Origin: Siphonodentalium dalli
Lineage: Eukaryota > Mollusca > Scaphopoda > Gadilida > Siphonodentaliidae
DNA: 64,000 nucleotides
Direction of reading: 5' to 3'
Assembly: GCA_032622095.1 (NCBI GenBank)
Contig: CP136064.1
Span: 174,600,310 to 174,664,309, forward strand
Shown here: in pieces, positions 28,652-64,000 of the stretch
Layout of the letters: the number at the start of each line of letters is the position of its first letter
Position numbering within the stretch: position 1 is the first letter of the stretch
Program-made: the position numbers and the translations under genes
The notes under the pieces: generated by a model
Told to the model about the DNA's origin: nothing
Seen by the model: only the letters and a program-made list of their open reading frames with translations
The model's database searches: none

Positions 28652-29254
28652 AAGGTACACAAGGCATTCAAAGTGGGTTCATGAAAAATAACAGAATATC
28701 ATCAATAAGTACAAGTAAAAATAGATTGATTTCATTCTTATTTCATTATTAATAACTCTCAAATAACGAGATTTCTCGTATTGAAACAATTGTTATATAA
28801 ACAGTACTGTTACAGTGACATTACCGAATCAAAGTCAATTAGAGACCAATGTTTAACCCTTTTAGTGCCAGTTTATGGTCTGTAGAGTGCCCTAAAAAAG
28901 GAAAAAAATGATTTTTTTTTTTTTTTTTGAATTTTTTTTTTTCGGTTAGGCCAATGCATTCTCTTATATATGCGAGGCGACCTATGGTCGACTCTCATAT
29001 ATAAGAGAATGCATTGGCACAGGGTATATGGGTCCATACAAAAATCGGACCTGGCACTCAAAGGGTTAAACAAAACTTGACAGTGAACATTGGAAAAGGT
29101 CAAAGCATTGAAAAATATTCTGAAAATCACATTTGGACTAAAATATTTGAACTTTCTACGTGATCAGCGATGTCTCTTAACAATTCACGGTAACAGTTTT
29201 GTTTACATAACTATGGTTTCAACATTTGAAATTTCGTTATTGTTTTGGGTCCCT
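28652..29254. mobile_element. TTAA-flanked AGGTACACAAGG element with nested MITE
   Basis: TTAA at 28648-28651 and 29255-29258. The outer arms are inverted (GTTACAGTGACATT...AACAGTTTTG). The inner element 28857-29065 splits it at TTAA, so the order of insertion is clear. Lies in the likely 3' UTR or downstream DNA of FOXJ. Confidence 0.65.
28857..29065. mobile_element. TTAA-flanked CCCTTTTAGTGCCAG hairpin MITE
   Basis: TTAA duplicated at both ends; right end CTGGCACTCAAAGGG. Arms contain GCATTCTCTTATATATGCGA. A poly-T/A stretch (28910-28940) is in the left arm. Confidence 0.65.
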
Positions 29255-35310: not shown

Positions 35311-35756
35311 GTAGTCATAGATAGGATATGCGTGATTTTGCAGTTTGTGAGGAAATAAAAACTGGTGGGAATTCCACCAACATATATGTAGTATTGATCA
35401 TTATGTATTTATATTGTCTTTACATGTTGGTTTTATTTTGGACCCATTTTAATTTTTCGACTACTAAATGGATTCTTCCAATCAGATCTAACAAAACACA
35501 TCACAATGGTCCATTCTTCATCTGTAGGGATGTTCAGATACTATAAACAGATGACAGACAGAACAACCAGGATATATCTGTTGAGATATAAGTTCAACAA
35601 ACATCTTGTTATAAGGCTGTTGCACCCATCAGCCAAACTTCGCTACAAATCAATCGATGAGAATCAAAGTTATTATACATCAGCAAATAATCAGTTATTA
35701 AGAGTTAACAGTAGAAAGTTTGGCTGAATTCTTTATAGGACAAATGTATAATTTAA

Positions 35757-35993
35757 CCCTTTCATGACTGGAGCTGCGCTGGTGTTGAACCAAAAATCCT
35801 GTGTCAATGCATTCTCTTATATATGGGAGTCTCCCATAGGGAACCTCACATATATAAGAGAATTCACTGGCTTACAATGTCAAGGTAAATATTGTTTGGC
35901 CAATGAATTCTCCATATGGGAGACTTGCATATATAAGAGAATGCATTGGCACAGGGTTTTACAAAATTTCAGGAAGCTGCAGTCATGGAAGAG
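35757..35993. mobile_element. CCCTTTCATGA double-hairpin MITE, copy 3
   Basis: TTAA on both sides; left CCCTTTCATGACTGGAGCTG, right CAGTCATGGAAGAG; both hairpins present. Confidence 0.65.
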
Positions 35994-38900
35994 TTAAGGC
36001 AACAATAACACATATAGTTCTATATAAAGATATGCTTTTATCGTTTATGAAGTTTGATGTACTCAAGTTTACACAGAAAATGAAAGAGATAATTGAAGTC
36101 TGAATTTTTGTTAAAAATTGCCAAGAAAGAAGGCTTCTGTATACATATAAGACTCGCTGATTCCATGTCAAATCGATGGCGAGATGTTCAAAGCTTGTGT
36201 ATTATACTCGCGTGTGTATCCGTGGCATATACTCAAGGAATACACATGCAAAACATTATTTGTGCATTGTGTCATTGTGTGTGTATCTATGGCTGGCCAC
36301 TGTTGGCTATATGGTGTTATTGTTTGATAGGATTATCATTTGCTAACCTCGTGTGTTAGATGGCAATGAGATTAACCATTTGTGTCAAATGTTGCTGTTG
36401 GGTAACATTTCATGAATGTTTGTCAGATTCTCAGAACTAACTTCAGCCAAATATGTCCTTTAATTTTTGCTTTCGGTATTTTTTATTTTGGTATAGTTAC
36501 ATACAGTATATACAATCAATGAAAATGCTCCTGCATTCTAATAATACAGTCACAACGTAAGACAATGATTATAATATCATCTTATATGGACAGATTGCCG
36601 AAAAACATGACACGCCGGTAAAATGTCTTGTGATAATAAAACGAATAAGTTTGTTTGTGTATATCCCCTGGATACACATATGTATAATACACAAGCTTCA
36701 GACATCTCGCCAAGAGTGTTTTGGTATCTGAATTCCTTCTGGAAGATGAAAATGAGCACCTGGTCTGTTACTATAAATAACCAGAGTATTCTTATGCATT
36801 TTGTTTTTGTATGTAAGTGTTACACATTCTTAGACATTGGCATGTAGTGCTGCACAATCATTTTCACATGTACATTCATCTGTTCACAATCACCTGTACA
36901 TAAACCTTCATGTAGTTAGATACACTGAAACAAATTTCCATGTTAAGGAACATCTAGGAAGGTATGACTCAATTCATAGAGGTTTGTTGTTAAGAAAACG
37001 AGTAAAAGTAGTAACTTAAAAATCCAAATTAAAAATGAGCATGCCACTTTAACAAATGCGTCGCTGTTGACATTACATCGCTATTGACATAACAATAGCA
37101 TATATCAATATCAATGCATTTGTAAAGTGGTGCACTCGTTTTTTATTTCATTTTTGTTTTAGTTGTATTTTCACTTGCTTTCTTATCAACAAGCCCCTGT
37201 AACTCAAATGATACAAAGAAGAGATTTGATTTAACATACTCAGTGACAATTTTTATATTTTGTTTTAAATCTTCCAGAAAGCTACATCTCAATACTAGTT
37301 GTTTCTTGGCAGCATGGACACTTTACCAGTTGAAAATTTGTCTATTTTCTGGGAAAGATATTGTTAGAATATATTGCACTGGTCAATATTTTTTGGATTT
37401 CAATAGAAAAATGGAATCGATTGAAGAAAAATGGTGGCATACCTGTCTTTTGAATTTCTTCTATGTTGTAGTGATATTTCTGTGATGGTTGGAAAATTGG
37501 TCAAATGAGCTCCCAACTTAATGCAAATATTTTTAATTATAGCCATGTGGCGGTTTGAAGCTGGAAATTACTCGCTTTTGTTATATCCGGGTCTAGTTAT
37601 CGGGAAACTATGCTGATAAATATGATAAATATTCTTGTATGCCACAGAAAGACTTATTCAAGTAATAGAATTTAGAATAATCAGGTCGTAATTTTTCTTC
37701 ATCATTGAACAATAAAAAGTACTCCTTGGTAATCTGTACCTGATATGGTAAAACTAAAGAGTGTTTCTCTCATTGATGTGAAAAATTGGGAACAGCTAGA
37801 AATTATGAATTTGGCATGTTTTCTCTTGACTATATAAAGCCTGTAGATTGATATTTCAAAACTTATCCACCTATCTTACCATTCTTCCAAAATACTTTGA
37901 CATAATATGGATGTTCGAATGATCCATGTCTGTTTAATATTGAAAACATCTCACAAATTGGAATCAACTCTTGCTGCAAGTCATTCATTGCGGCTCTATT
38001 TCCAATTCTTTACATGGAAATTATTCATCATTCATATTAGAATCTTCCATTTTTAAATTATGTATGTCAATGAATGTTAGTAGTATATTACACATTCCTT
38101 ATACATTTTTCAATTAATGTGATGAGACGTTCACCTATTTATCATTAACATAATAAATCCCACGTCAAGGCTGCAGTTTATATTAAATTGTACACTATTG
38201 TATATATATATGTACATAGCACTAACAGGGCAATCATTTCTGCAGTTTTCAGGTAAACACATTCAAACAATTATTCAAACATATATTCTTATGACTGGTA
38301 AATAACAATGAAAATATATTCTCAAACCAAATCTTCACTAAACTATCACTGATGACTTTTGGAGGTCCTGCCATCCATGTTCTCAAATCAGAATATGAGG
38401 ATATTTTATGAAGACAAATGATGTTGCTTATGTTTCAGAACTTGTATCAATATGAAATTTCAATTTCATGCTGAACTTGGATGATCTTTGTCAGAGTTAT
38501 GGGCCATTTTTCGACTTGGAAGTTTCTTTCCAAATGGTAAAGCTGGATTATTGGTCATCGCTATCCTTTGAATGTGACTGAATTGGTCCAAAATGATATC
38601 AGATTAATTCCACAGTTACTGATATAGTCTTTTTCAACTTAACAAATTATCTCCAGATGATAACTCCAGTCTGACCAATTCGGTACTTATCAGACTATAC
38701 CATATCAGCCCAATGATTTATGATTTCAGTATTTTACTCAAGCAATGATTTTTAACATTTCCGGTGTGTGGGACATTTTTGTCAAAACAATTATGACTTG
38801 ACATTGAGAGAGACTGAATTCAGTGTCTTTCTGACTGATCCCGGGGTTTTATTACTAGTTATCAGTGATTTGTGGCCAACTGGTCAGCTTTTGCTGAAAT

Positions 38901-39071
38901 ACCCTTCTAATATATGATGTCTAATTGCTATGTCTCATTACATTTCCTTGAAGAATCATGCTTCGTCATAACCCATTGACTGGTCTGGTAAATCCCATAA
39001 AATGACTATTGCTGATAAATAATGAATATGATGAAAGAGAGGTAACCCTATTCACAAAATAAACATTTTAA
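35994..39071. other. no gene recognised (intergenic)
   Basis: A weak inverted pair around 37020-37140 (AAAAATGAGCATGCCACTTT and its diverged inverse) is the only structure. The other open frames look like chance. Confidence 0.5.
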
Positions 39072-39545
39072 CCCTTTCATGATTGGAGCTGAGCTGGTGC
39101 AGCATTCAAGATCCTGTGCCAGTGCATTCTCTTATTATATACAGTAATGCTCTAATTAATAGACTCCATAACCACAGCAGAATTATGGTTAACTTTTCAG
39201 GATTTATTCGGAAATATGGCTTGTTGCCATTCATCGGAAAGCTCTCGCTGAGAGCTTTCCGATGAATGGCAACAAGCCATATTTCCGACTAAATCCTGAA
39301 AAGTTACCCATAATTCTGCTGTGGTTAAGGAGTCGATTAATTAAGAGCATTACTGTATGAGAGTCTCCCATAGGGAGCCTCGCATATGTAAGAGAATGCA
39401 CTAGCTTACAAGGTCAGGGTAAATGTTGTTCGGCCAATGTATTCTCTTATATATTCGAGACTCCCTATGTGAGACTCAAATAGATAAGAGAATGTATTGG
39501 CACAGGGTTTTCGCATAATTTTCGGAAGCTCCAGTCATGGAAGGG
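39072..39545. mobile_element. CCCTTTCATGA double-hairpin MITE, copy 4, with nested palindrome
   Basis: TTAA on both sides (39068-39071, 39546-39549). The first hairpin loop is interrupted by the palindrome at 39142-39355; the second hairpin is intact. Confidence 0.75.
39142..39355. mobile_element. CAGTAATGC palindromic MITE, copy 5
   Basis: Inserted in the TTAA MITE 39072-39545; uninterrupted relatives of that MITE show the site with a single TATA run, proving TA target use. This fits Tc1/mariner or pogo-type mobilisation. Confidence 0.82.
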
Positions 39546-40765
39546 TTAAAAGTGTAAGAACCTGGTTTGACCACTCTTGTCAGGTGTATTTGAATAAGTG
39601 TTCTTCTGTGTTCGTGAAAAGTAGACTACCAAGATGAATACTAAGAACAGACCAAGAACATGTTCGCGAATTTGAATTCCGGGAGTGAGAATCCAGATCC
39701 GATGACATGTTCTTGATCTGTTCCTGGCCGATTCTTGGGGTTCAAATCCTGGCACATTATTCTGCACTTTTATTATCTGTCGTTTGCTGATTTTTCCTGA
39801 AACCCCCTCCAGATGAATAATAGACCACTCCAATGTATGCTTTTATAACTGACTGGGAAAATTCACTCAGTATAGAAAGGATTAAGTGAATAAGTATACT
39901 CTTTTTATGTACAAACCACAAATTATTTCAACACTCACTATGTTACTGACAATTGACTTAAATTGAAGAACAAGCATTGAAGTTAGATATCAGAAATTTT
40001 TTTTATGCAGATTTGTGTTCTTGTCTAGCTTTCTTGGAAAATTACGCAAGCTGGTGCAACAGAAAATTTGAAGAAAGTGGTTTCTTATGGTGTAGCAAGA
40101 TAACAGCTATCAAATATAGTTGCAACAGCTCGTGTTAATGCTGACGTGCAATATATATTATATTGGAAAGATGTTGTTTTGCAATAGTCATATTTATCTA
40201 AATAGCTATATATATTTTATAAGTTATAGCTATAAATGGGATTTGCCAGACCTCATTAATAGAAATATATCTGTTTTGAATCTAACTTAAATTCTCAAAT
40301 TCCCCATCTCAGATCAGTTTTAATCAACAAATCTGTGAGAAGAACATTCCCAAACATTATATATATGCGTGTGTGTAAATACGTGCCCAATAGTATTTGG
40401 ACTATTTTTTCGTCCATATATTTTATTTATTCTTAACTAATGCCTCAGACAGATCTTTACAATTGCGTCCAATATCATCACTGCACATGTACATACATTC
40501 ATTGTATCTACTAGTTGAGTAAGTGCTCAAAGGTTTATATATCACATATATTTATTCAATTCAAACCATTGTACATTTGATAAGTGCATTTGTAAATATT
40601 AGTACAAGATGTACACAGGATTGTGGGTATTTGCGGTCTACTGATAATCATATTTAGACATGCATGATACAGGGGTATGATGTCTAGTGAATGTAGCCAA
40701 TTCATTTTTTTTTTAAATATCCAGTTCGATTTACAAAAGGTGCTCGGTCTCTTTCTTCCAACATC

Positions 40766-44610: not shown

Positions 44611-45155
44611 TTAATGCATTTATTCCTGTCTTATACAGATGATCCAAGCATAAGGACTTGAACGTCAAGGGAAGTCCTATCTCATTGACAAACCAATAGT
44701 TTCTGTAAAATGGAAATGTTATTGTCAGAAAGTGGGTGGGGGGGACCTGACTGCTTCCCTTTGGGAACCAGGGGCATTTTTGACCCTCTTATTACTAAAA
44801 TATTCCCTGGTATTTAACATTACTTAAGGACCAGGTAGTATTGATATTAATTAATAGGTGCAGCTAGATTAAGAAATAGTGTTGCTAAATCATAATTTTT
44901 GTGACAAGTGAGTTGGGATATTGTTTCAAAATTTTGACTAAATTGTAGAAGAGGGTCTGATAAAATTATTCATTGGTATAGGGGCACATAATGATAAAAC
45001 ACACTGAATATTTTTAAAGTAAACAATTTTTATAAGAACCAAATTAATATGAGAAATTGTATGATATTTGTTACTATTAAAGTTGATCGACCCTATCTGT
45101 GATATTATTGATTTCTGTTTGTTTAAATTGTACCGTGAAGCGAAAGTGCAAATAC

Positions 45156-45320
45156 CTGAACATCTGAAATGTCCGGATCATAGTCTAAGTGTTTTCCGTT
45201 TCTGTTAAATACACTGTCGCGCATTTTTTGGATCGCCGATTTCCGGTTTACTATTCGCAATGGCCTTGAAATTGATGAGAGCATTTTCTCCTGCTTTATG
45301 CGACTATTCTCCTTTGTCAT
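45156..45320 (-). CDS. candidate exon of an unidentified minus-strand gene
   Basis: From ATG (45318-45320) the frame encodes 55 codons: MTKENSRIKQEKML, SSISRPLRIVNRKSAIQKMR and DSVFNRNGKHLDYDPDISDV, ending CAG/gtattt (phase 0). Amino-acid make-up is strongly protein-like (basic then acidic, no low complexity). A pyrimidine-rich tract ending tgtgtaag just upstream could instead make it an internal exon. I do not recognise the family. The next upstream candidate exon on this strand is 48236-48329; the MULE-like element lies between them. Confidence 0.45.
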
Positions 45321-45468
45321 GTCATGTCTTACACACAGGAACAAGAGGTATCACATGGTTAGGGTTAGGGCATACCCGATTTTCGATAACTTTGAAATAA
45401 TTTCTCCTTTTATTTTCGGAATTTCATTTGTCTCGGAAAAGTTACCAATTTTTGAGCAATCCAGGCAT

Positions 45469-48053
45469 TAGTCCAACAAATTAGACTTTCGGATTAATTG
45501 GAATTTTAATATTTGGACATTTATGGACCATTTAATCCTTCAGTCTAATACTAGGCGTGAAAAATAGGAACGCTGCGAAGCCACTTATTTTACATGGCAA
45601 GGGCATGCCCCTTTAACTTACACTGTTCACGTCCAATGACACAAATAAAACCATGAATAAAAAACACATACCTGTTGTTGGAATGTTTAGTATCATGACT
45701 GAACTAACTAGAATATTTTTTGTCACTATTAATCCATTAAAATTTGATCAGAATACACACGTCAGAAATATCAACATCGTCTGCGTGAGGAATACGCGCG
45801 GTATTGAGATTACGCGCATGCGTAAAGGAACAGAAATCATGGAAAAATTTTAGGCCACACCAAACTTATTTCGCAGTTTCATTGTTCCAGACCATGTATG
45901 AGCAGGCTGATTTTTATAGACATTATTGGATCTATATCCTTATAATTTTTCGGAGTGAATGGTTTTTGTTCACATCTATATATTAAGTATATATGTAATA
46001 AACGCTAGATAAAAACGCTAACTGGCTGTCAAGCCACATACAGTACAAAAACGCAAGGAAAGCTATAGTGGATGGGTGTCAAGTAGGCCTTCAGTTTCAA
46101 CAATTGGAAAGTTTGTGCCTAACATGTTGAATTTGTTTTGATATGCGAGTATTACTGTGGTCATATATATAATGTGAAATTTGTAGTGATAAATCGAGAT
46201 ATATATAAACACACACATTATATAGCATCGTCGTCGAAATTGCTAGAAGTTTCATAGCAGACGTCTAAATGCAATTTTGGGCGCAATTTGTTACCGGATG
46301 GGAATATATTCGCTGCCACGTGGTCTTGTATTTTATACATATAAAAACGAGCTTCGCTTTGATAATTGAGAATGACACAGCTACGAAAATGCATATATGT
46401 ATACGAGTTCAATTATTCTATATAATTTGTAGCCGCCAGTGCCCGCCACAGGTACGATTTTAGTCGAGCGACTGAATATGATTGGCTACCTCCAATAAAT
46501 AGTACGACTCGATCGTAGAAAATCAAAATTATTCGATTCTTTGCGAGGCCGATCGTGCGTCAAAATGTCCTGCGATTTTCCACCGCACAAGCTACGATTT
46601 TACCTATATATATAGCCTACAATATAGGCTTAACCGGTGCCCGATATTTGTCGTACAATATATATCGCATCGTACGCGTGTGCGGCGCGCTAAGGCATGT
46701 TTAGGTTTTCCGTATCAATAATAATATTATATGTAGGCTGGTCTATTGCCAATTGTGTAATTTCCAATTTAACACAGTCAGGCAACTATTTTCGGTACGG
46801 TAGCGTATGTACAGGTACATACTTCAATTTATCTCCAAGTTTTACAATATACGTTTAAACACGTACACATATTCGCCGTATTAATGACCATATATTATTT
46901 TAAACATATAATAGGATGACCATACTTACCATTACTACTGTAGAAAACATTAACACAACTGTTTATTTGAACGTTGATTTACCGTTATCTCATTTTACTG
47001 GAAAAAGCGGTAATAATCGGTAACCATCGTAACGGCAGGTTTTTTTTCTCGATGTCGATTATAAACAGGCAAACGAAAATATAGTCGAAGTGCCGTTTCA
47101 GTTAATCTGTTTATCACTAGAAATGTGTTGGTTTTATGCCAAAATATCGAACATAGACCTATATAATCCGGCTTTTGGTGACAATTTGGTCATAGTTTTT
47201 GACTTGTGAACATTTCATGGGGCAGGTGGTCGTTGAATTCATCGATTACAACTGATTTACTTACACGAAAATCCACAGGAATACGAATATAATCCACATA
47301 AGTGACTAATAATAATAACTATTACCCACGAATATCATACTCTCGTCGAATCTTGACATACCGGAAAGCTTGAAAGACCAAGCATCCGGTTAACCGGTTA
47401 ATCAATTTGAATTTCAAAACTAATAAAATAATTTCCATATCCCTTCAAATATTGTTTACTTAAGAAAAGGCATCTTTATTTTTGGTACAAAAATATCAAT
47501 GGTATAATTTTTATAAGAACACTTCTATGATGAAAATGTCAACAAAACCGGACGAACAGACCCTTATTATTGTTATTTATCAAACAAACAACATTTGGCG
47601 CTAATGTGCTATCTATAAATGCCAACAAATTGACCCAGTTGATATTTCCATATCTGCACGGCATATATTGATTTTCACGAGTAATCAATTTGTGTGGCCT
47701 TTATTTTAGAAGCGTGACGTCATCATTATCGTCTGTATTTGAAAATAGTGATATGTTTTCGACTCCGAGATTAAACTAACAAATCTGTAATTCTGACAAC
47801 GTTTATATCACAATCTATGTTTGAACATAAAGAATACTATCTCCGCTACAGGTAAGACTCATGTATTTGTAGAAAATTTCAGATAGAATGGTATTTTGAA
47901 GGGGTTATATCGGTGGTCACTGGTGTTGACCTGCTTAAAAAAATTTGCAATCTTGGTTTTCAGCTGTTTTATTAGACTATAAGGAGTAATACAATCGTAA
48001 ATGTCCAAATATTAAAATATGTATTAATCCGAATAGTCTAATTTGTTGGACTA
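45469..48053. mobile_element. 2.6-kb MULE-like transposon with 9-bp target duplication
   Basis: TCCAGGCAT lies directly outside both ends (45460-45468 and 48054-48062). The inverted ends begin TAGTCCAACAAATTAGACT and remain alignable for about 80 bases with some mismatches. A 9-bp duplication with long TIRs is typical of Mutator-like elements; Merlin (8-9 bp) is the alternative. The interior is richer in CpG than its surroundings, especially 46180-47760, and has no transposase-like frame, so it is non-autonomous. Confidence 0.75.
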
Positions 48054-48235
48054 TCCAGGCATGACTGACTCACTGCCATGAGGCAAGTGACTGTAATAGT
48101 GTAAGTTGTAACTGTCAGCCCGAAATTGGTGAAATTCAATATATTTATAAATTTTAATGATTAGAAAAATAACGGGAATACGGAACCCTATTAGTATTAG
48201 TAGTATATGGCAAATATCAACGAAAATATGGAAAC

Positions 48236-48329
48236 CTGTACACATTGTCATTGATGATTGAACCCTCGAACATATCAAACTTCGAAGGTGTAGCTTCTTC
48301 TTCTTCATCATGCGACATGCCCATGCCGT
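48236..48329 (-). CDS. candidate internal exon with acidic EEEEATPSKFDMFEGS segment
   Basis: On the minus strand a long pyrimidine tract (ctcccctttctcc) ends in ggctcag, followed by a frame reading GMGMSHDEEEEATPSKFDMF then EGSIINDNVY, and an AG/gtttcc donor. The phases are 1 in and 2 out. An inverted, diverged copy lies at 48640-48706 on the plus strand. The family is unknown; this could be one exon of a gene that also includes 45156-45320, although the phases I can find do not join simply. Confidence 0.45.
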
Positions 48330-48416
48330 CTGAGCCATAGATATGATAGGAGAAAGGGGAGATTGGGGCTGATAGCTCAGTTGATTTGGTTTGTGGGCTA
48401 ACCTAGCTCAGCCTCA

Positions 48417-48591
48417 GGGAAGTCGGTAGCCGAGAGGTAGCGTACTGGTCTCTCGTGCTAGCGGACCGGGGATCGCAACCTGGTCAGGGTATTCTGACAA
48501 AAATCAGAACTCGGATACCAAGTTTGTCAGGCTGAAAAGTCTCATTCGAGATCACTGAATAAAGATCCGAATGCAATAATGACGACTTCCC
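48417..48591 (+). mobile_element. tRNA-derived SINE
   Basis: A-box TAGCCGAGAGG (48427-48437) and B-box-like GGATCGCAACC (48470-48480) are spaced as in a tRNA gene, followed by a non-tRNA tail. The ends show a short inverted match GGGAAGTCG / CGACTTCCC. A second A-box-like TAGCTCAGTTGA just upstream (48373-48384) hints at a dimeric head. It separates the two inverted EEEEATPSKF copies. Confidence 0.6.
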
Positions 48592-48613
48592 CCATTACAA
48601 CATTTGTCCAAGT

Positions 48614-48856
48614 ATGTTGTCAGTAAATGACAGCGAGCTGTCGCATGAAGAAGAAGAAGCTACACCTTCGAAGTTTGAGTTTGATATGTTCGAGGGTTCG
48701 GAATCGAATCCCATATCGTATCGGTCGGACTTTTTGTTGCCATCTGCATTTCCGGAACCATCGATGCCACATTCAGTGCTTCCAGAAGCAAAGCAATCTC
48801 AAACAAATTTGAAAAATGCATACTCAGGCTCCAAATTAAAGTGCAGACCCAAATAA
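48614..48856 (+). pseudogene. inverted partial copy of the EEEEATPSKF exon
   Basis: The plus strand reads SELSHEEEEATPSKFEFDMF, then EGSESNPISYRSD and on to a serine/proline-rich stretch ending at TAA (48854). The first third repeats the minus-strand exon at 48236-48329 with an extra two-codon insertion, so it is a duplicated, inverted fragment. It runs into the repeat that starts near 48826. Whether it is expressed cannot be judged. Confidence 0.35.
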
Positions 48857-49440
48857 TAGTGCAAGGGGGGGGGGGGGGGATTTTCAATGAAAATTAATAA
48901 ACGTGCAGACCCAAATAAAAGGGCATTGGGGAATTTCCAGCAAAAGATTACAAAATTAACATGAAATGAAAAACCAATAGCCATTTATTGTCTACCGGTA
49001 CATCTAGTAGTGAAACTTTGAAAGATCTTGTTCTGAGATTTATCTGAATAAAGTTTCCATAAACCTTGAGAGTCTTGGTTATTTAGTTGATGGGTTAGGT
49101 CACATTCCAATGACACAATATAATATTAAGTATCTCCTCTCCCTGCTACAGTCCAAATACATCTTGCTTGCCTGCTATTACCATTATGGGAATTCCCCTC
49201 AGCAAGTGACATATCTATAACTGTCGAAGGGTTTCCCAAAATTTTAAGTGAAGCAATGTTTTGAAGTGGTAAAACTTTTGTTTGTTGATGAATTTGACGA
49301 TTCACTTTTGGTACAGTATATTTTACTGAGAAATAAATGAATGCGCAGACCCAAATAAGTAACGTGCAGGGAGGAATTTTCCACCTGAATTATTAAACGT
49401 GCATGCACGCTTATTTGGAGCCCGAGAGTAGGCCTACTGG
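48826..49440. repeat. GTGCAGACCCAAATA repeats in inverted arrangement
   Basis: GTGCAGACCCAAATA occurs at 48840 and 48903 and as GCGCAGACCCAAATAA at 49343; GGCTCCAAAT and TTTGGAGCCCGAG mark the two outer ends (48829 and 49415). A G-run is at 48867-48881. A fold-back element of about 600 bases is inferred. Confidence 0.45.
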
Positions 49441-52301: not shown

Positions 52302-55300
52302 GTGTGAATTTATGGACTTTGTCAACCCAGTCAACATACAAGATTCAGGTGGGTTACCAAAAACATCACTGCTTTTTAGGCATAATCATTGATTACTTTA
52401 TATGGAGCCTCATATATGCAGAATCCAAAGTCTATTTACCTGATCTTATTCCTTCCATTGACTCATAGGCAGAAGATATAGTACAAAACAAGATGAGAGC
52501 GGTGTAACAGAGGTGCAGGAAACCTACCCAAATATAGATTATGTTGTTAATCCACAATTCGTTAACAGAAATCCAAGGTTAGTATCTATTATTATTTATG
52601 CAGAAAACTTGTTAGATTTGTGGTTTCTCCTGAAGCTTCATAGAACAGTGCTTTCAAACATTCAAGTCTTGCAAAGTCCAGTATAAAGAAGGGTATCAAT
52701 TTACATCAATGATTTGTTTTCTATCTCACCCCCGAACAAAGTTGTGGGTGTGCTAACTTGAATTAGGTTAACTTTTTTTTTGCCATTATGGCAAGCCTGG
52801 AAATAAACGTCCAGTCAGGGTCAATGAATGGCCAAAAAGCCTAAATGACCAGTCCATGTTTGCTTGTTCATGTCATTATGACCGGTGCTTATTTATGTAT
52901 TATGCACAAATCAAAATGACGCAATATTATGACGCAATGGAGAATATTCTTGCTAAATGTAGTTATATTATACAAATATTGTATCCAGATTGATAACACA
53001 CCATCATTCTTATATATTAATTAAATGTAGTGACTCTCGATGGTGAAATCATTTTCGTTAGTTTATCACTGGTAGTTGCGTCCCGAAATGAGAGGTAAAT
53101 ATTTACAATCGACGTAGTTCAGACAATGTTTTCTATGGAGTGTTACGTTTTATTTGCTTGAGATTTTCAGTGATGTTAGTAGAATGCTACATTCCACCAG
53201 TTTATCAGTTTATATGAATGGCACAAAATTATTAATGACCGACAAAATCAATTGGTGCCCATCAATTTGACAGTTTCCAAAATTTTTGGTTATTTCCAGA
53301 CTTGTACCATGGCAACTAGTACACCCCGAATTGAGGGATCATTCAGACTTATTTTTGGCAGTTTACGTAATTTTGTAAAGGTTTTATTCATTCATTCCTC
53401 AATTGTTTTGAAATTTGACACAAAAATGTTTTAATTTGTCAGTTAAAGGCCCACTTCAATTTTCGAACCCCCAGATCACACTATATAAAATATATACCAT
53501 ATTATATACCATGAACCCCCAGATCACACTGTATAAAATATATACCATATTATATACCATGAACCCCCAGATCACACTGTATAAAATATATACCATATTA
53601 TATACCATGAACCCCCAGATCACACTGTATAAAATATATACCATATTATATACCATGAACCCCCAGATCACACTGTATAAAATATATACCATATTATATA
53701 CCATGAACCCCCAGATCACACTGTATAAAATATATACCATATTATATACCATTTGAAAGATGAAGCCCCAAAACATTGTATTATCAACTTATCTGGTATA
53801 ATCAACTCTGGACATGTTGTTTTTGTTGCATTCTGGGAGCAAGACTGGGGAAATGTTTCTATGATTTCAACTCTTTTCTATTACTCTATGGGCACCTTCT
53901 GAGAACCAGACGTTCCAAATGGTGATGAATTATAGTATTTTAATCATATTTTATGTCATAGATTGTTATTAAAGCCGTATATCAAGGCACTATAAAAATA
54001 ATTATCGGTGACTCGAAAATTAAATGGGCCTTTAATAACAATACTGTAAATGTCCTCACATTATTTTACAATAGGCATCTAGAGTTCAATGGATTTGCTT
54101 GGAAGAGACAAGGATGGGAGCTGCAAATGCCAAGAAAAGATTACTATCATCAGTATGTATGGTTATTGTGGAAAACAAGGCAGAAATTTTACCTTACAAG
54201 ACTGGGACATTCATTACTCTGAGAGACATTTAATCTATATGAACTTACCAGGCCAGAAGGTGTCATAATTTCAGACTTGGCCTTTCAAGAGCAATTGCTC
54301 CATCTCCCCTCATTGCTCCTAATATTTAAACGAGGATATTGACTGTGGAGTAATCAATGTACATGTATATAGAGGAATTTTAATTATTACTCAGCACTGT
54401 ACTCAGAGCAAAATAGTTAATTCCTTGAGATATTTCGTCCAAATTGCTTGGAATTTTTCAATCATCTGAGACTGACAATTGCTCGATGACATTTTGAGGG
54501 CCATGTGACATCAGGAGTCTACTAAAGATAGTAGGAAGCTCCAGTCCACCATCCCTGTGTTGATGGTGGGTTTCTTTCTCTTGATTTCTATGGCTCCTTT
54601 AACCTTTTCATGATGGGAGCTGTGCTGGTGCAGCATTAAATATCCTGTGCCAGTGCATTCTCTTATATTTGCGAGTCTCCCATAGTGAGCCTCCCATATA
54701 TAAGAGAATGCACTGGCTTACAAGGTCAAGGTAAATAATGTTAGGCCAATCTATTCTCTTATATATGTGAGGCGCCTTACTTTTGCGAAAATCCTGTGTC
54801 AATGCATTCTCTGATAGTCGTCCATAATATGGACGACTATCAGAGAATACATTGACACAGGATTTTTCGCAAAAGTTCATGAAGCTCCAGTCATGGAAGG
54901 GTTAAGTTTCCTCTCAGTAAAATGGTCCTCTGATGTTATGACTTACACATTACTTGTTGATTTTGTGGTTCTTAACCAGGCATTGTTCGAAAACTGTTAA
55001 AGGGTGTCTCGTTCTTTTATTATAACTGTTTCATCGTTGTAATCCTCCTCAGTCATAACATGTGATGTGGTAAATAACGCCACATTTCTTATTGTCTCTC
55101 ACTTTGTTAAAGAAGCCATATTTAATACTTGAATTTTGGCGATATTTACACCATTTGTTATATTTATTCTGATTGCATTTGATCATATTTGACCCTCCCC
55201 CCCCCCCCCCAATACTAAATACTCATTGTCGAGTATCTCTGTTTTATACGACGTGTGATACACGTGTATAACTGACTATTTTCCTGGTTAAATAAGAGAG

Positions 55301-58300
55301 TCGGCAATTGATCGTGTGTTACACGTCGTATAAAACCACGATACTCGTCGAAATTCGTCCTTACACGTGTCGACGTATTACACGACTGGCCTGGACGCGT
55401 AACTCATCACTTGTTCGTCAATTACGCGTCGCTGATTTATACGACGGGTATGACACGAGTAACGGAACACAATATGGCATAATATTTCACCCCATTTTGA
55501 GCCCCAGGGCGATCGCACATGCGCAGAAGAGTTATGACAACTTGTTTTTGTCGGGCTGTACTGAAATCGATATCACTTGTTGATTGAAAATATAGTATCT
55601 TCATACTAACTCTCCACTAACTCATCCGACTTGTGATTTATTGTGCTTATATAATGTGATTATTCAAGGATACAATCAGAGGATAAACTCAACAACCATT
55701 TTAATACAGAACATTACCTGTCAACACAGGGTGCTCCGATTTTACGGAGGAATATTCAACACAACACCAACAATGGCGTCTGAACAACAAATAGTTGAAT
55801 CGGGACGAATGTTAACGCACACTGTCGCAGATTTGGACGATTCTTTGTAAGTCCCAACACGCCATTATGGCATGTCTCATTGCGTATATATGTGGGGAAA
55901 ATGATGACGTTATTGTTATTAGCATTTGCGCGTATCTTTGCGAATTTAAAAGAAAATTGAAAACATTCAAAAATGAATCAAATTGTCAGAAATGTACTTT
56001 TAGAAGAATATTCCCGAAACAGGCTAAAACGTTATATTTTTCAGATAACAATAATCACAGACATACCTATGTTTAACGTAGACCTATTGAATATATATAG
56101 CGTAATAACGAGAAGAATTAATTTAAATGTCGCGGACATTTCAAGAAAAATATAGAGTTATTTCTCTTCAACTTTCATTAGTTTCAAGTTCAACTTCAAG
56201 TTGATTCATGATTGTTGTCTGTTGAAACTTGAAGGTGATTTATAAGTTCATTCATTCAATATCAATTTAAATCAAAATCAAATTATTGACAAGATGAATA
56301 GTAATACTAGTGTATCTATAGTGTCGGCCTCGGCTTACAAGAGTAATTATATTCTTGAATCTGATATTCAATTTGATTCTGAATTGTGTATTTTTCATGT
56401 TTACAAATTACAATTTACATCCAATCCTAGGTCATAGCCTACTGCCATAGCGCGGGCTACTACAAGCAAGCATTTAGGCTTTAGCGAGTTTTGAGTGGAA
56501 TTTGCTCTAATCCAATCCATGCCAATTCAGGCAATTGTACATGTAATTGAATTTGAATAACATCATGGATTCATGATTGTGATTGTCACATTTACTGATT
56601 TAGGCTATACTTTTATTTTCAATGAAATAAACATTTAATAGGCTTAGACTACTAATAAATTGGTACTGTTACAAATACCGATATTGTGCTAACTGTACTA
56701 GTGTACTAGTAAGTAGTGTTGAGATTGTTGACTTAGTTTAGTTAGTACCGGTACTAGTATAGTGACCATAAACTATTTTTTCTTCTTCAGGTTGTCTGTT
56801 GATGAAGTCGAAGAGCATGGGACTGCGGTGGAGCCCGGACGCGCGAACTGGGTGGAGAGATATATCACGGATCTCGTTGACATCATCTCCGGCTCGGAAA
56901 ACCTGAAACGTAAACTAATATACACGAACACAAAAAAACAGCAGAACTCGGCTGCCTATGAACAGGTCAGGGAGCAGCTACTACGTCGTCACCCAGAGTT
57001 CGGTCTAAACGTCACTCAAATACGTAACAAATTCAAAAGCCTTATCTCGATGTGCAAGAGCACTGCTTTGCGGATAAAAACGTCATCTGGCATCGCCAGG
57101 TTTCAAGAAGAAAAGGGGTACGGACCATGGTTTCAAACACTATTTCAGCTTGTAAAAGCTAGAGAATCGTGTCAGCCGGACCTGGCTGTAGAGCCGTCTG
57201 CTAGGCCTACTGCGGCAGCGAGTACTGCGGTAGTGAGTACTGCGGTAGCGAGTACTGCGACAGCGAGTACTGCGGCAGCAAGTGGTGAGGAGCCGGGCAG
57301 TGTACCTTTATTCACTCCCGTCAGGAAGGCGCAAAAGCGAAAAATTCCGGATATGATTGCGGAGTGTATTGACGTCGTCAAGAAGGCAGTTGAGGCAGAC
57401 ACAACGAAGGACATCCTCTCGTACATGAAGGAGGAAGCCGAGCGATCAAGGGCACATGAACTGAAGGTTTTGGAGTTGCTGCAGAGACATGAGTATGGTT
57501 CCACTAGGACAGGGCCAGGCACTGCAGCTAATGCGAATGTTGAACGAAATTTGTTTGACCAATTTGATCAATTCAATAATAATACCAGTAACAATACTTA
57601 TTACCAAATGTAAAATAATATTGTTGTTTCATTTTGACCTTGGGATCATAGGATGGTTGGTAAATAATGATATGTGAGCAATTTTTGCAATACTCTGCGA
57701 TGCAGTTTTATGATATTGTAACCAAGTACTGCTGCCTATTTATGCTTCCAAATATTTTGTCGGACTTGTATACTGCACAATTTAGTATATATGTCTTTCT
57801 CATATTGACATACATGTATATACTCATATATACTCATTGGTGCATTTTTGATCATTTGGCATTTGAACTTTTGAAGGCAAAATCACACTCCACACAATGC
57901 ATTTAAGAACCGTGAATGAAATACAATAGAAGGCCTAACATTAATATGTACCATATAACAACGTGTTAATGATTCCGATGCGAAACTGTCAAACCGCAAT
58001 CCATAGTCTGTTTATGCCAGTTAAGAAAACCACAACCGCATCCCAGAGTATTGCATTAATTGCCCACCATAATGATTGACACTAGACTCATCTTTGAAAT
58101 GGAAATGGTATATCCAACCAATGTGTTGTGTTAGTTTTTATGTTTACCCATACCATAGTATGGTAAACATAATGTCGACGTCCGGATTGACCACTTGTCG
58201 TTCGTTCGTCTGTCCGTCTGTCCGTAGACACTTTATGCATGGTCCGATAACTCAAATATTTTCTATCTGATCATAACTAAATTTTGTATATGAGTTTCTC

Positions 58301-61300
58301 AGACCAAAATACAGACCGAGTTCGAATATGGGTTTGATTCGAGTTTTTTTTACGGAGTTATGGCCCTTTTTCGAGTTAGAATTCATGGATGCTACGATAA
58401 CTAAAAAAAATGTTATCTGATGAGAACCAAATTTGGTATGTGAGTTTATCTATCTAAAATACAGTTCGAGTTCGAATATGGGTTTGATCAGTTTTATTTT
58501 AATTGAGTTATGGCCCTTTGATATAGAATTCATCCATGCTTCGATAGATCAACCAGTTATCGTCTGATAGGAACCAAATTTGGTATGAGTTTCTCAACTC
58601 AAAATACAGATCAAGTTTGAATATGGGTTAGATCCTGTTTTTTATTCCAGAGTTATGGCCCTTTTTAACTAAGGATTGAACAGATTCAATATTTGTATGC
58701 TTATCATGTAGAACCATAGCAGCTAACCCCTGTGATATCAGTTAGCACTGAGAGAGAGAATTTTGTATGTGAGTTTCTCAGCCCAAAATACAGATACATG
58801 TAGATTTCGAATTTGGGTTTGATCCATTTTTTTTATATTTTAAACATAGTTATGGCTTATGGATTTTCGTGTCCGAACTGAAAATAGCTGATCACTATCG
58901 CCAAGGTATGGGTTAAACATCTGCCGATCGTTATCGGCCTCTCGTTCTGGTATACTCTCACCTGCCTAATAAGTTATGATATATCACATGAACCCACTTG
59001 AAATAGGATTCAAATATCACAGAAAAATCCATGTTATATTTATTGGTATACACCACTAGTGTTATGCAAGATAAAAGTTCGTACAACAGGAAATTCACAT
59101 GATATCATTACAAAGGTGATACATACTTCAATATAAGAATCAGCGAATTCAAATCAGAATTTGAAAAAAATCATAAAAGAATTACACTATTATTACCAAG
59201 GCAGGTTAGAGCTTGAAAGTTGTTGACAGAACTACTGCGTCACATAATTATGACGTTGGAACCAACTGGTCTATTAATACGTGGGTGGTGTATTTTAGAC
59301 TATACACAGACAAGGTACCGGTATGCATCTATTTTTAATAATTATGGCATTAGCCTACAATCATGGACGTAAATGACGTATATACATCGCTGCTACAATC
59401 AATACAATGTCTACATTGAGGTTTTTTCTACCCAGAATTTGTCTTTGATTGCATCCCTCAATGCTGCACCTCCGCGATCGTTATCTCTAGTGGGCTCGCA
59501 TGGAATTAAATGGAGTAGGTCTTCGATCACCTCCCTTGGTCGTCTTTCCTGCGTAATTGGATCCAAACTCATGTCAAATTTTTTTGACACGGAGTCACCC
59601 CTGGCTATACAAATGTTGTGCAACACGATGCACGCAAGCACCGACATTTTTACTTGAGCTGGTGCACACTCGTTTTTACGTTGTGTTACACGCCATCGAC
59701 CTTTTAGCTGTCCAAACGCTCCCTCGATCACCATTCTAGCACGACTCAGTCTGTAATTAAAGTAACTCTCCTCTTCGGACAACACTGCATTGGAATATGG
59801 TTTCATCAACCATTTCTTAATGGGAAAGGCCGAGTCCCCTATAATTTGTGGCGGAATTTCAAGGTTGTCATTTTCGTTCGTCACTACACTTGCCACTGCT
59901 CGCCCTTCTGACAAATCACTCCACATTTCGGTCGACTGAAAAATGTTAGAGTCATGTGAATTTCCGGGGAAGCCGCACGACGCCCAAACAAATCGATATC
60001 TTGAATCCACCATGGCCATGAGTACTATACTATAAAAGTTCTTGAAGTTGTGGTACTCTTTCTGTGACTCTTTGCCCCCCGATGGGCACTTAATCGGAAT
60101 GTGGCACCCATCGACAGCCGCCCACGCGAAAGGATACTGCCACATTTCATGCATATCCAGCAATGCATCGCGAGTTTGTTCCTGTGATTTGGGGGTGTAT
60201 TTGGTGACATTTTCTTCCCACAGGACGGCAACAATGGCATCGCAAACTTCCTTTGTGATATTTCTAACCGTTGCTATTCCACGACCCGTCATTTGGGAAA
60301 TGGTATAGTAGTAATCGCCCCTGGCTAAACGGTAGATGCCTATTGCAAAACGTTCTTCGGGGCCAATTGGGTCTTCTACGAGCTCATTCTTGACGAGATG
60401 GTGACGAATATTGTCAAGGATGTGGTTAAAAGTCCCCCGACTAATTCGAAATGTTTTTTTGAAGTGTCTGTCGCCATAGGCATTGACTGTTTCGAACCAA
60501 CCCTGGTTTCGAAGAAGGCGTCGGCATGACCGATTTTGCTCCCTAGGGGCACACAATTGCATATACAGTTGAGATACTGACAACATTAATGTTCTCAACA
60601 TTAACTCCCTTTGACGCAAAAGCATGAGAATAATTCCATTGCGTTTTGTACGCTCAGCGCGCATCCGTAATAGTTTTAGAAGGACAAGATGTCGTAGATT
60701 TATAGCAGACGACATGACTTTATTTGTTTACGATGGGTTAACTCCCTTTTTAGTTAGTCGGATTACGTCCCTTGACGCCAGTCTAGATTACACGTGTAAA
60801 GTTAACACGTCATATAAATCAAACGTTAAAAACTCGTGTTGACGACGAGTTAACGTTACACGTGTAACGTGTATCACACGTCGTATAAAACAGGCCTTAG
60901 GAAATGTTCAGATAATATGTCATTTGTTGAACTTATTATCTGAAAATTTCATAACAGAGCTACTCGACCAATAGAGGAATCCTTCTGCTCTTGTATTATA
61001 ATATTCATCTCTCTTTCATCTGATAACTTTTCCTGAACTCCCCTCCAAATGAATAATAGACTATTCCAATGTATACAGTTATAACTGGGTTGGAGAATCC
61101 ATTTAGTAAATAATGGATGCCTTGGAAATTTTTTTTAAATGCTGAGAATTTTATTGAGTTTTATCAATTCTGTCCTGATGGGATCCTGATTCTGCTGTTG
61201 AATAGAGCTAACTATGTGAAGAGAATAAAGAACTGGACTACTTATTTTATTTTGGCAGGCTGTTTTTTGAAAAAACAAACAGGTATATCATTGGAAGAGT

Positions 61301-62519
61301 GGAACATTTCACAGAAAAAACAGTGATATCAGCATCCAGCAAAGAATGGGCTATCAAAGATGGACTATACAGGTACAAATTATACATCTCTTGTTGTGTG
61401 CTCACCAGGGAAACACTTGCTGTGTATCCATTTACAGCTGATAAATAGAGATTATCATTACCGTGATGTCATCTGAGGCTTCATAACACACCGAGTTGAG
61501 ATCCTGAATCAGATGAGTAACTGCAGGCTCAGAGTAAGATCCAGGATCTCACCTTCTCAACGAGATGTGATGTGGAGACTCAGATCACTTCACTGTAGTA
61601 ATAATATATATTATATAACCAGTTGAACTTGATTGTTACAACCAATCTCTGAAATTTATTGAGATGAAGGTGATCAGTTGAATTCAAATTTAAACAACAA
61701 TTTCAAGAAGAAATTTCCCAATTGAAAATAGTACCGGAGCCTTGTTCTGATTCAGACATGCATGATATGGAATTGGATCACGACACTGTCATGATCCTAT
61801 TTATAGGAAAACCATCACCAAAAAATAGCGGTATTAATGAAAATAATGACAGTCATGCAATAAATAGAAGATATTTTGTGTTTTTGAGTGGATACCGAAA
61901 ATTATGTCAATCATGATCGAGACAAATATTTATTTGACTTGTTCACAATGAAATAATTTTCGATATTCACTCAAAAATACTAGATATTCTTTTTATTATA
62001 CGGCAACGCGTTTCCAAAGAAATTCACCATTAACGACGATAAATGTTCTTACATGTCATCACCGTCAATCAATGTATCAAAGTCAACAGCTGATCGCTGC
62101 CTGTTCACTTCACCATCTGTAGAAAAGAGAAATATAGTTATCTTATTATTCAGTTTATTTCCCTCATAATTGTGTTGAATTTCAACATAAAATATATTTT
62201 TATTATAACTATAATAATAACAGTAAAATATAACTGTACTGATACGCATTGGTACTAGTACATGAAAGTGAATCGGTCGCATGCTCGAGTTAGTGTGAAA
62301 GTGAAAACTTCCATGTCCTCTTCTGTTGGATATCAAATTGATTTAACCGTGATTGAAGATAAACCACTATTGATCGTCTAATAAAGATTAATTCATTCAA
62401 AGAGTAGTAGATCGACTGGTGTTTCGGGAGTGGTAGTGGAGACAGATGTGACAGCCAACCTTATTGAGCATTTATTAAAAGTGCTTCAAGCTGAAAAGAA
62501 ACAAGAACAGTTGTTGTAA
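52217..62519 (+). CDS. MRPL18: mitochondrial ribosomal protein L18 (uL18m), five exons
   Basis: Exons 52217-52301, 52469-52577, 54075-54152, 61259-61372 and 62411-62519 join in frame to 164 residues. The family hallmark PQFVNRNPR is followed across the next junction by HLEFNGFAWKRQGW, matching [21 protein letters not shown] of human MRPL18. Exon 4 gives VEHFTEKTVISASSKEWAIK, matching the human VEH...VVVSAS-x-x-EWAIKKHLY block. Known role: a large mitoribosomal subunit protein of the uL18 family at the central protuberance. The N-terminus is basic and R-R-Y-S-T follows near residue 30, as in mitochondrial presequences. Human MRPL18 is 180 residues; the stretch corresponding to its I-G-R-V-L-A-Q-R-C region was not found between exons 4 and 5. 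Intron 3 (7.1 kb) contains a whole Harbinger transposon. Confidence 0.88.
52469..52577 (+). CDS. MRPL18: MRPL18 exon 2 with FVNRNPR motif
   Basis: The acceptor is gactcatag and the donor is gttagt; phase 1 to 2. It encodes RRYSTKQDESGVTEVQ and ends NPQFVNRNP, with the last R split across the junction. FVNRNPR is the diagnostic start of the mature uL18m domain. Confidence 0.9.
52955..53210. repeat. second copy of the FOXJ intron 3 repeat
   Basis: Direct-orientation copy of 22440-22720, clearly alignable over about 250 bases. Confidence 0.6.
53447..54031. mobile_element. second TTAA / AGGCCCACTT element, carrying a tandem array
   Basis: Same ends as 2413-2854 and TTAA on both sides. It lies in MRPL18 intron 2, ending 43 bases before exon 3. 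Confidence 0.65.
53465..53753. repeat. six 48-bp tandem units
   Basis: Unit begins ATGAACCCCCAGATCACACT and contains TATACC twice. Six near-identical copies; since 48 is divisible by three and the unit lacks stops in some frames, long repetitive ORFs appear on both strands without being genes. Confidence 0.85.
54075..54152 (+). CDS. MRPL18: MRPL18 exon 3
   Basis: The acceptor is acaatag and the donor is gtatgt; 78 nt, phase 2-2. It encodes HLEFNGFAWKRQGWELQMPR and then KDYYH, aligning with human [25 protein letters not shown]. A TTAA-flanked element (53447-54031) ends only 43 bases upstream of the exon. Confidence 0.9.
54603..54901. mobile_element. CCCTTTCATGA double-hairpin MITE, copy 5, with rebuilt perfect hairpin
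   Basis: TTAA on both sides. The second hairpin has an extended perfect stem centred on CCATAATATGG (about 54790-54875). Located in MRPL18 intron 3 just upstream of the Harbinger. Confidence 0.7.
55773..57613 (+). CDS. Harbinger accessory Myb/SANT-like DNA-binding protein, two exons
   Basis: Exon 1 is 55773-55846 (ATG, MASEQQIVESGRMLTHTVAD...), donor gtaagt. Exon 2 is 56791-57613 after acceptor ttcttcttcag. Joined they encode 298 residues ending TAA. A Myb/SANT-like (MADF/Myb_DNA-bind_4 type) helix bundle spans about residues 40-140, with NWVERYITDLVDIISG, YEQVREQLLRRHPEFGL, TQIRNKFKSLISMCKS and GYGPWFQTLFQLV. An A/S/T-rich run (about 163-185) comes from a short DNA repeat, and a charged helical region (KAVEADTTKDILSYMKEEAE) follows. 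Known: in Harbinger elements this protein accompanies the transposase into the nucleus and binds subterminal DNA. No frameshift or internal stop is visible. Confidence 0.85.
57202..57285 (+). repeat. short coding minisatellite in the Harbinger Myb-like gene
   Basis: A GCGAGTACTGCG-like unit repeats about five to six times with substitutions and encodes an alternating STA/AVA run. It explains the A/S/T-rich linker after the Myb-like domain. Confidence 0.7.
58125..58980. repeat. tandem-repeat element nested inside the Harbinger
   Basis: Head palindrome GTTTACCCATACCATAGTAT/GGTAAAC, then GTCTGTCCGTCTGTCCG, then four units of about 130 bp with CAAAATACAGA, CGAATATGGGTTTGATC and AGTTATGGCCCTTT. 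A second copy starts at 63597. It separates the Myb-like and transposase genes. Confidence 0.6.
59411..60715 (-). CDS. HARBI1-like: Harbinger transposase (HARBI1-like nuclease, DDE_Tnp_4)
   Basis: A single uninterrupted frame of 434 residues. The catalytic triad is visible: D202 in AAVDGCHIPI, D255 in GFPGNSHDSNIFQST, and E331 in MVIEGAFGQLKGRWR; GDSAFPIKKWLMKPY lies between the last two, as in HARBI1-type nucleases. An N-terminal helix-turn-helix-like region is around 85-160 (FRISRGTFNHILDNI, ISQMTGRGIATVRNI). The start is the ATG at 60713-60715; the first 30 residues are basic and hydrophobic. Length and motif order fit an intact enzyme. It is transcribed toward the Myb-like gene and opposite to MRPL18, so it could yield antisense RNA to the MRPL18 intron. 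Confidence 0.92.
   Translation of the reverse strand: MSSAINLRHLVLLKLLRMRAERTKRNGIILMLLRQRELMLRTLMLSVSQLYMQLCAPREQNRSCRRLLRNQGWFETVNAYGDRHFKKTFRISRGTFNHILDNIRHHLVKNELVEDPIGPEERFAIGIYRLARGDYYYTISQMTGRGIATVRNITKEVCDAIVAVLWEENVTKYTPKSQEQTRDALLDMHEMWQYPFAWAAVDGCHIPIKCPSGGKESQKEYHNFKNFYSIVLMAMVDSRYRFVWASCGFPGNSHDSNIFQSTEMWSDLSEGRAVASVVTNENDNLEIPPQIIGDSAFPIKKWLMKPYSNAVLSEEESYFNYRLSRARMVIEGAFGQLKGRWRVTQRKNECAPAQVKMSVLACIVLHNICIARGDSVSKKFDMSLDPITQERRPREVIEDLLHLIPCEPTRDNDRGGAALRDAIKDKFWVEKTSM
60853..60870. promoter_or_regulatory. 18-bp perfect palindrome next to the right Harbinger end
   Basis: ACGTTACACGTGTAACGT equals its own reverse complement and directly adjoins the 27-bp TIR. An AACTCGT...ACGAGTT hairpin precedes it, and similar ACACG blocks lie inside the left end (55312-55350, 55373-55395). 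A subterminal binding array for the transposon proteins is inferred. Confidence 0.5.
60897..61110. mobile_element. right part of the repeat that hosts the Harbinger
   Basis: TTAGGAAATGTTCAGATAAT, GAATAATAGACTATTCCAAT and GAGAATCCATTTAG match 8340-8570. The left part (AATACTAAATACTCATTG) is at 55212-55229. Confidence 0.6.
61259..61372 (+). CDS. MRPL18: MRPL18 exon 4
   Basis: The acceptor is ttttggcag and the donor is gtacaa; 114 nt, phase 2-2. It encodes LFFEKTNRYIIGRVEHFTEK followed by TVISASSKEWAIKDGLY, matching the human block at the same spacing. A second acceptor-like cag at 61282 would drop eight codons of the conserved stretch, so the upstream acceptor was chosen. Confidence 0.9.
61373..62410. 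other. MRPL18 intron 4; expected missing exon not seen
   Basis: I searched for a phase 2-2 exon of about 60-70 nt encoding the I-G-R-V-L-A-Q-R-C-like block and found none. The only exon-like item is on the minus strand (62049-62116). Confidence 0.5.
62049..62116 (-). CDS. candidate last exon of a minus-strand gene within the MRPL18 intron
   Basis: On the minus strand the acceptor tctcttttctacag is followed by a frame reading GEVNRQRSAVDFDTLIDGDD, M and TAA (62049-62051). The strong pyrimidine tract, protein-like acidic end and clean stop suggest a true terminal exon. It lies between MRPL18 exons 4 and 5 on the opposite strand. Its upstream exons, expected beyond 62116, were not identified and the protein is not recognised. 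Confidence 0.45.
62411..62519 (+). CDS. MRPL18: MRPL18 terminal exon (probable)
   Basis: After gtag at 62407-62410 the frame opens exactly in the phase left by exon 4 and ends TAA at 62517-62519. It encodes STGVSGVVVETDVTANLIEH, then LLKVLQAEKKQEQLL. Position and pattern resemble the human C-terminus (G-I-N-F-M-V-Y-Q...S-M-K-R-L-Q-S-A-M). The acceptor is weak, without a good pyrimidine tract, and one phase 2-2 exon may be missing before it. Confidence 0.55.
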
Positions 62520-62880: not shown

Positions 62881-63596
62881 CAAAGTTGACTGACGAAAAT
62901 CGGCAAAATGCCCCAAATAATTTATGATAATTTACAACTGTCAACTGTGATTGCACACAATACTCCACTATCAGGGTGTTATAAAACAATTAACACCTGT
63001 ATTGCTCCAATCTGGAAGCATGTTGACAACAGAGTCTGATTACTGGCAGTTGTGAAAACATCGTCGGGCCTCAAGTGTTAATCTGGTTGTTGTGATTTTT
63101 AGATTACCGTGATTACCACAATGAAGATTACAACTCACAGCTCTCACAATGTGTCAGTTCATCACTCCCTCTATGGACTTTGGTTAAAGAAATTTTAAAA
63201 CAAATTCATTTGTGAAGCATCTTAAAATTTCAAACGGGATTAGCGCAGTAAAAGTGTTCATGATTTCGTTTCGTTTCGGTTTGATAAATATTGTTGGCAT
63301 TTTTAAAAACCCGAAAAATATGAAATAAAATCCTGTCATTCTCCCACAATTACGATATAAAATGCTGCTATCCTCTCACAATTATGTTTGGGTATTATTA
63401 ATAGTTATTAGGGTCATGAAGTGAACATAAATACTCCATATTTCAACCATTGTTTCATAAGTTTAATTGACATATTACATCTCTCCTATTTTCGTTCTAT
63501 AGGAGTATAGCGACTCATGTCGTACTCGTAGTACTGATCAATTTAAATTTTGTAGACTCACTTCGCCCTATAGAACGGCCACTTCGCCTTATTTTT

Positions 63597-64000
63597 ATGT
63601 TTACCCATACCATAGTATGGTAAACATAGTGTCGTTGCCCGGATTGACCACTCGTCGTTGGTCCGTCTGTCTGTCTGTCCGTCTGTCCGTAGACACTTTA
63701 CGAGTAATGCGATAACTCAAACATTTTCTATCCGATCGAAAGCAAATTTTGTATATGGGTTTCTCAGCCCAAAATACAGATCGAGTTCGAATATGGGTTT
63801 GATCCGAGTTTTTTTTAGGGAGTTATGGCCCTTTTTCAACTTAGAATTCATGCATTCTGCCATAATTAAAAAAAAATTCATCTGACCATAACCAAATTTA
63901 GTATGTGAGTTGCTCAGTCCAAAATACATATCGAGTTCAAATATGGGTTTGATCCAATATTTTTTAATGGAGTTATGGCCCTTTGACATAGAAATCATGC
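63597..64000. repeat. second copy of the GTTTACCCATACC-head tandem element, cut by the window end
   Basis: Same head palindrome, GTCCGTCTGTC run and units as 58125-58980; ORFs on either strand here are repeat artefacts. Confidence 0.6.

Follow-up and report, generated by a model that had tools for sequence, protein, structure and literature searches.

PIF/Harbinger-like (PHIS) DNA transposons have been grouped by the target that they duplicate upon insertion: TWA for PIF/Harbinger, CWG for NuwaI, C|TNA|G for NuwaII, ANT for Pangu, and AT for ISL2EU, with no duplication within AAATTT for Spy (PMC4482050). The same classification gives mean lengths of ~4.1, 4.5, and 4.7 kb for PIF/Harbinger, NuwaI, and NuwaII, and it describes NuwaI as having two genes, one with a Myb/SANT domain, as occurring in animals including one mollusc, and as having terminal inverted repeats (TIRs) that usually start GGG (PMC4482050). 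Work on other members describes a requirement for both the Myb-like protein and the transposase, with the Myb-like protein binding the TIRs and helping nuclear import, and excision that is usually precise (PMC2836001, PMC9179366). Here we describe what is very probably a complete two-gene element of this superfamily at positions 55239-60893 of a 64,000-nucleotide stretch (the window) of contig CP136064.1 from the scaphopod Siphonodentalium dalli, where it lies in an intron of the mitochondrial ribosomal protein gene MRPL18.

Structure and coding capacity of the element

With its nested insert the element spans 5,655 bp; it is delimited by its TIRs, by the transposase gene that they enclose, and by a host repeat that resumes on both sides. 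Its left TIR, CTGTTTTATACGACGTGTGATACACGT (55239-55265, plus strand), and its right TIR (60867-60893, minus strand) are complementary at 27/27 positions, as the original prediction had it. That prediction placed the right end at 60896, which is three bases too far: the element stops at 60893, and 60894-60896 (GCC) are host sequence and no duplication of the TCT that flanks the left end. Searching the window for the TIR core CTGTTTTATACGACGTGT with up to 3 mismatches returned five occurrences, every one of them within ~210 bases of an element end; 0.04 would be expected by chance, and none of 100 shuffled sequences contained five or more. Besides the termini, these comprise two subterminal repeats at the left end (55321-55338, minus strand, and 55432-55449, plus strand; 2 mismatches each), which are candidate binding sites for the transposase or the Myb protein, and one at the right end (60805-60822, minus strand; 3 mismatches).

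An inverted repeat at 55230-55264 and 55313-55347 (86% over 35 bases) overruns the left TIR by 9 bases into the host-repeat flank. A corresponding leftward extension of the element, in which 55230-55238 also pairs with 55339-55347, was considered and rejected because the host repeat continues up to 55238; the extra pairing is either fortuitous or a trace of old similarity.

The right half of the element encodes the transposase, a single-exon frame of 434 amino acids on the minus strand (59411-60715) with its ATG at 60715 and a stop codon ending at 59411. It matches the full DDE_Tnp_4 profile (PF13359, profile positions 1-158; expect value [E] 9.2e-32) across query residues 204-370 of 437, that is, 201-367 counted from the first Met, and also matches Plant_tran (E 5.9e-10). 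D202, D255, and E331, which by family motifs would be the catalytic residues, are all present in this frame, as had been claimed. Candidate minus-strand poly(A) signals lie beyond the stop at 59334 and 59039. A comparison of the transposase with PDB sequences gave 11 hits with E values of up to 1, none of them strong (best E 0.044).

The second gene lies on the plus strand, tail to tail with the transposase gene. Exon 1 (55773-55846) opens at an ATG at 55773 in the context CCAACAATGGC, and the splice site read from the sequence is a GTAAGT donor at 55847. The predicted intron (55847-56790) begins GTAAGT and closes with TTCTTCTTCAG, its pyrimidine-rich acceptor TTTTTTCTTCTTCAG ending at 56790. 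Exon 2 (56791-57613) contains a 15-bp in-frame coding repeat at 57208-57283 and carries a Myb_DNA-bind_4 similarity that is weighed below. The predicted spliced frame encodes 298 amino acids, and neither it nor the transposase frame has an internal stop, so the statement that both genes are open stands.

Relatives were also sought in collections of viral and prokaryote contigs. The transposase had no pattern match in the viral contigs and 18 in the prokaryote genome contigs, none of which was confirmed; the Myb-like protein had 11 in the viral contigs, likewise with none confirmed, and the TIR pattern had none there. These misses mean little because the sequence searched is viral and prokaryote.

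Between the two genes lies a nested element of ~780 bp (58140-58920, ends approximate; plus strand) that is built of ~150-bp tandem units and bears the end motifs ATGTTTACCCATACC and GGTATGGGTTAAACAT. A partial second copy matches it at 85% over 407 alignment columns (63592-63998). That copy (63592-64000) opens with the near-palindromic ATGTTTACCCATACCATAGTATGGTAAACAT and is cut by the end of the window.

The DDE_Tnp_4-type catalytic domain and the TIRs together place the element in the PHIS superfamily. With the weakly Myb-like gene they form the standard anatomy of an apparently autonomous Harbinger transposon, in agreement with the original prediction, and on the sequence we put the probability that this is a structurally complete, two-gene, cut-and-paste PHIS transposon at roughly 90%. 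This anatomy fits the two-protein scheme of other members: the Myb/SANT-like protein would bind the TIRs and the subterminal TIR-core copies and recruit the DDE transposase, which would cut both ends and reinsert the element. Expression, splicing, binding, and mobility are all predicted in this scheme. In its present position the element would presumably leave the MRPL18 transcript together with the intron.

Insertion site and age

The sequence on either side of the element belongs to one host repeat. Its left part occupies 55212-55238 (plus strand), and its right part (60894-60968, plus strand), recognized from an inverted repeat as well as from matches of the joined flanks, includes the second arm of a palindrome. 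Once the flanks are joined, they match 8347-8396 and 18756-18808, two paralogues of the host repeat that lack the transposon. The element thus interrupts a host repeat and is itself interrupted by the tandem-repeat insert, the doubly nested setting described earlier. It probably entered one arm of a short palindromic repeat in the MRPL18 intron not long ago on an evolutionary scale.

Three features of the sequence bear on that timing. We simulated neutral substitution in the two frames (400 trials for each frame, the two results being multiplied) and obtained probabilities that both stay open of 0.62, 0.43, 0.14, 0.06, and 0.01 at 0.5, 1, 2, 3, and 5% change; because indels were left out of the simulation, these values would overestimate true survival. 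The TIRs are intact, although identity over 27 bp is by itself weak evidence of youth because 27/27 would be seen ~25% of the time if the two ends had diverged by 5%. Finally, the CpG observed/expected ratio is 1.07 in the transposon minus its insert versus 0.61 in the window outside the element. The seven 2-kb windows lying wholly within the element, insert included, range from 0.80 to 1.03, the mean outside is 0.59 (standard deviation, 0.23; 110 overlapping 2-kb windows), and the two 1-kb stretches that begin at 54000 and 61000 have ratios of 0.33 and 0.32. The frames, the TIRs, and the undepleted CpG are indirect support for a fairly recent insertion, which we consider likely, at a lower level of confidence than the identity of the element.

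Contrary evidence and alternative explanations

Several results weigh against a recently inserted two-gene Harbinger element. The Myb_DNA-bind_4 (PF13837) match is weak (E 6.2e-4; 20.5 bits versus a Pfam cutoff of 27). AlphaFold2, run without relatives, gave a low-confidence, all-helical model of the Myb region (mean predicted local distance difference test [pLDDT] score, 61.7), with which a fold search returned none of its 77 reported PDB matches at E ≤ 0.001 (best E 1.7); the match to the DNA-binding domain of fission yeast Sap1 (E 2.5; template modeling score, 0.47 by query length and 0.52 by target length) is not significant. For the transposase, AlphaFold2 run in the same way was uninformative (mean pLDDT, 34.4). 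CpG is also high in places outside the element, with a 2-kb maximum of 1.43 at 46001; the 1-kb stretches at 62000 and 63000 reach 0.93 and 0.99. In the intergenic part of the element at 57614-58133 it is low (0.53), so it provides no clean clock. The nested insert shows that some time has passed since this copy landed, unless the transposon brought the insert along. No second copy of the transposon was seen within the 64-kb window, and its junctions have no perfect 3-bp target-site duplication. The triplets flanking the TIRs are TCT on the left and GCC on the right; if the last three TIR bases are instead counted as target, they become CTG and CAG, and this imperfect CWG pair is the sole candidate. 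The suggestion that the insertion may be recent therefore keeps the support of the frames, the TIRs, and CpG, and has the ~780-bp insert and the missing perfect duplication against it.

The lack of a clean duplication could have arisen in any of three ways: a CWG duplication may have changed by one point mutation, a small deletion may have occurred, or the element may have integrated without duplicating its target. The point mutation would make the element a NuwaI-type PHIS transposon whose duplication copies are now one base apart and whose TIR proper starts TTTTATACG, a reading that would refine the subgroup. We aligned the joined flanks, with or without the CTG kept, to three uninterrupted stretches of host repeat in the window. 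With nothing duplicated, they align without gaps to 8347-8396 (84% over 50 bases; E 1.9e-10) and to the opposite palindrome arm at 60968-60897 (72% over 72; E 1.7e-9), whereas keeping the CTG lengthens the empty site by 3 bases and introduces 3 gaps in each case (E 3.5e-6 and 4.5e-8, respectively). The alignment to 18756-18808 needs one gap if the CTG is kept and two if it is dropped, both at E 1e-5. Two of the three comparisons are thus best with nothing duplicated, and one favors neither arrangement. The NuwaI-type reading has in its favor the CTG and CAG at exactly the two ends, the two genes of NuwaI, one of them coding for a Myb/SANT domain, and its occurrence in animals that include a mollusc, the CTG that faces the kept CTG at the matching place in the second arm, and the single rather than double gap against 18756-18808. 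Set against it, besides the two alignments that are otherwise gapless, is the start of the TIR, which is TTT or CTG here and usually GGG in NuwaI (PMC4482050). We regard it as a tentative possibility. Integration that makes no target duplication, as in Spy, by a two-gene (Myb plus DDE) Harbinger-type lineage would make the joined flanks the exact empty site, and we consider this improbable, more so than a mutated NuwaI duplication. If it were true, duplication-free integration would have arisen in a lineage still using a separate Myb-like helper. Should further copies also prove to have no duplication, the element would help to show how Harbinger-like transposases differ in target-site choice and staggered cutting.

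That the element is an old or immobilized copy is a question of age and activity rather than of identity. Under this explanation the frames are still open by chance, the element has lost its mobility, its target duplication has eroded, and the insert was gained later. The imperfect CTG/CAG pair, the nested insert, and the lack of a second copy within the window would all suit it, as would the stretch between the Myb stop at 57613 and position 59504, where the plus strand has neither AATAAA nor ATTAAA. An old copy would nonetheless have had to keep both genes open over 732 codons, for which survival is ~0.06 at 3% neutral decay, together with identical TIRs and a CpG content that is mostly undepleted, and we judge it unlikely. 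Domestication is far less probable still. Here the transposase or the Myb gene would be a host gene and no part of a transposon, and open frames within a host gene region and the existence of domesticated Harbinger genes (reported in PMC9710019) could be cited for it; however, domestication would give little reason for a gene to remain with its partner between perfect TIRs that have TIR-core repeats at both ends, or in a host repeat broken at the TIR ends. The PHIS transposon is our preferred explanation.

Host gene and surrounding repeats

The window has a G+C content of 35.6%, and the MRPL18 exons are on its plus strand. Three exons were delimited by GT/AG borders, in-phase joining, and a match to uL18m: 52469-52577, probably exon 2, and 54075-54152 and 61259-61372, which directly precede and follow the 7.1-kb intron that bears the transposon. 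Translated together, they match 8 distinct solved uL18m chains (best E 9.4e-18). The location of the element inside an MRPL18 intron, with its transposase antisense to the host gene, is thereby borne out. An AG acceptor precedes the exon at 52469, and therefore at least one further exon is expected upstream; the designation of the host intron as intron 3 assumes that there is exactly one.

Between the exons ending at 52577 and starting at 54075, six copies of a 48-bp unit (99% matches) occupy 53465-53752 and contain two overlapping open frames. CpG-rich sequence at 45001-49000 (2-kb windows of up to 1.43 observed/expected) may be the MRPL18 promoter; a second CpG-rich region lies at 12001-15000 (up to 1.04), and the rest of the window is mostly CpG poor. 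To the left of the transposon, 54639-54876 belongs to a palindrome-rich repeat family built around TTCTCTTATA that recurs at 3544-3656, 18419-18671, 25075-25139, 27657-27918, 28945-29027, 35750-35998, and 39067-39549, the ten best matches outside the locus being 72 to 93% identical. A similar ~164-bp tandem unit forms two arrays, at 10-1130 (~7 copies) and 10855-12138 (~8 copies), for which periods of 327 and 319 bp were also called. Rfam had no match in the window at gathering scores, and Pfam yielded nothing above cutoff for nine other frames of the window.

Comparison with described PHIS groups

Overall, the element is one more well-preserved, autonomous-looking Harbinger-type transposon of an ordinary kind, which can serve as a reference copy and might supply material for a transposition assay. 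Neither junction has the TWA duplication of the PIF/Harbinger group, and we therefore file it at the superfamily level, as a two-gene Harbinger-like (PHIS) transposon. Nor do the other groups match throughout: no TNA triplet of the NuwaII target C|TNA|G occurs at either junction, and for ISL2EU, Pfam matched neither YqaJ nor THAP to either protein and the flanks are not AT. A 17-bp target of zebrafish Harbinger, looked for in the literature, did not appear in the papers that the search listed.

The element resembles the PIF/Harbinger group in its DDE_Tnp_4-type transposase, its separate weakly Myb/SANT-like gene, its TIR of tens of bases, and its length of ~4-5 kb without the insert; at ~4.87 kb, it is near the means of PIF/Harbinger, NuwaI, and NuwaII. 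It differs from that group in ending without a TWA duplication and in a TIR that starts CTG or TTT, where theirs usually start with A or G. With Spy it shares an insertion at which no clean duplication is recognized, but it has two genes versus one in Spy, and its site is ATCT/GCCT rather than AAATTT. It shares with NuwaI the two-gene content and the CTG and CAG at its ends, but its flanking triplets are not identical and its TIR does not start GGG. Judged by target sequence, NuwaI with one changed base would be the nearest fit among the described groups.

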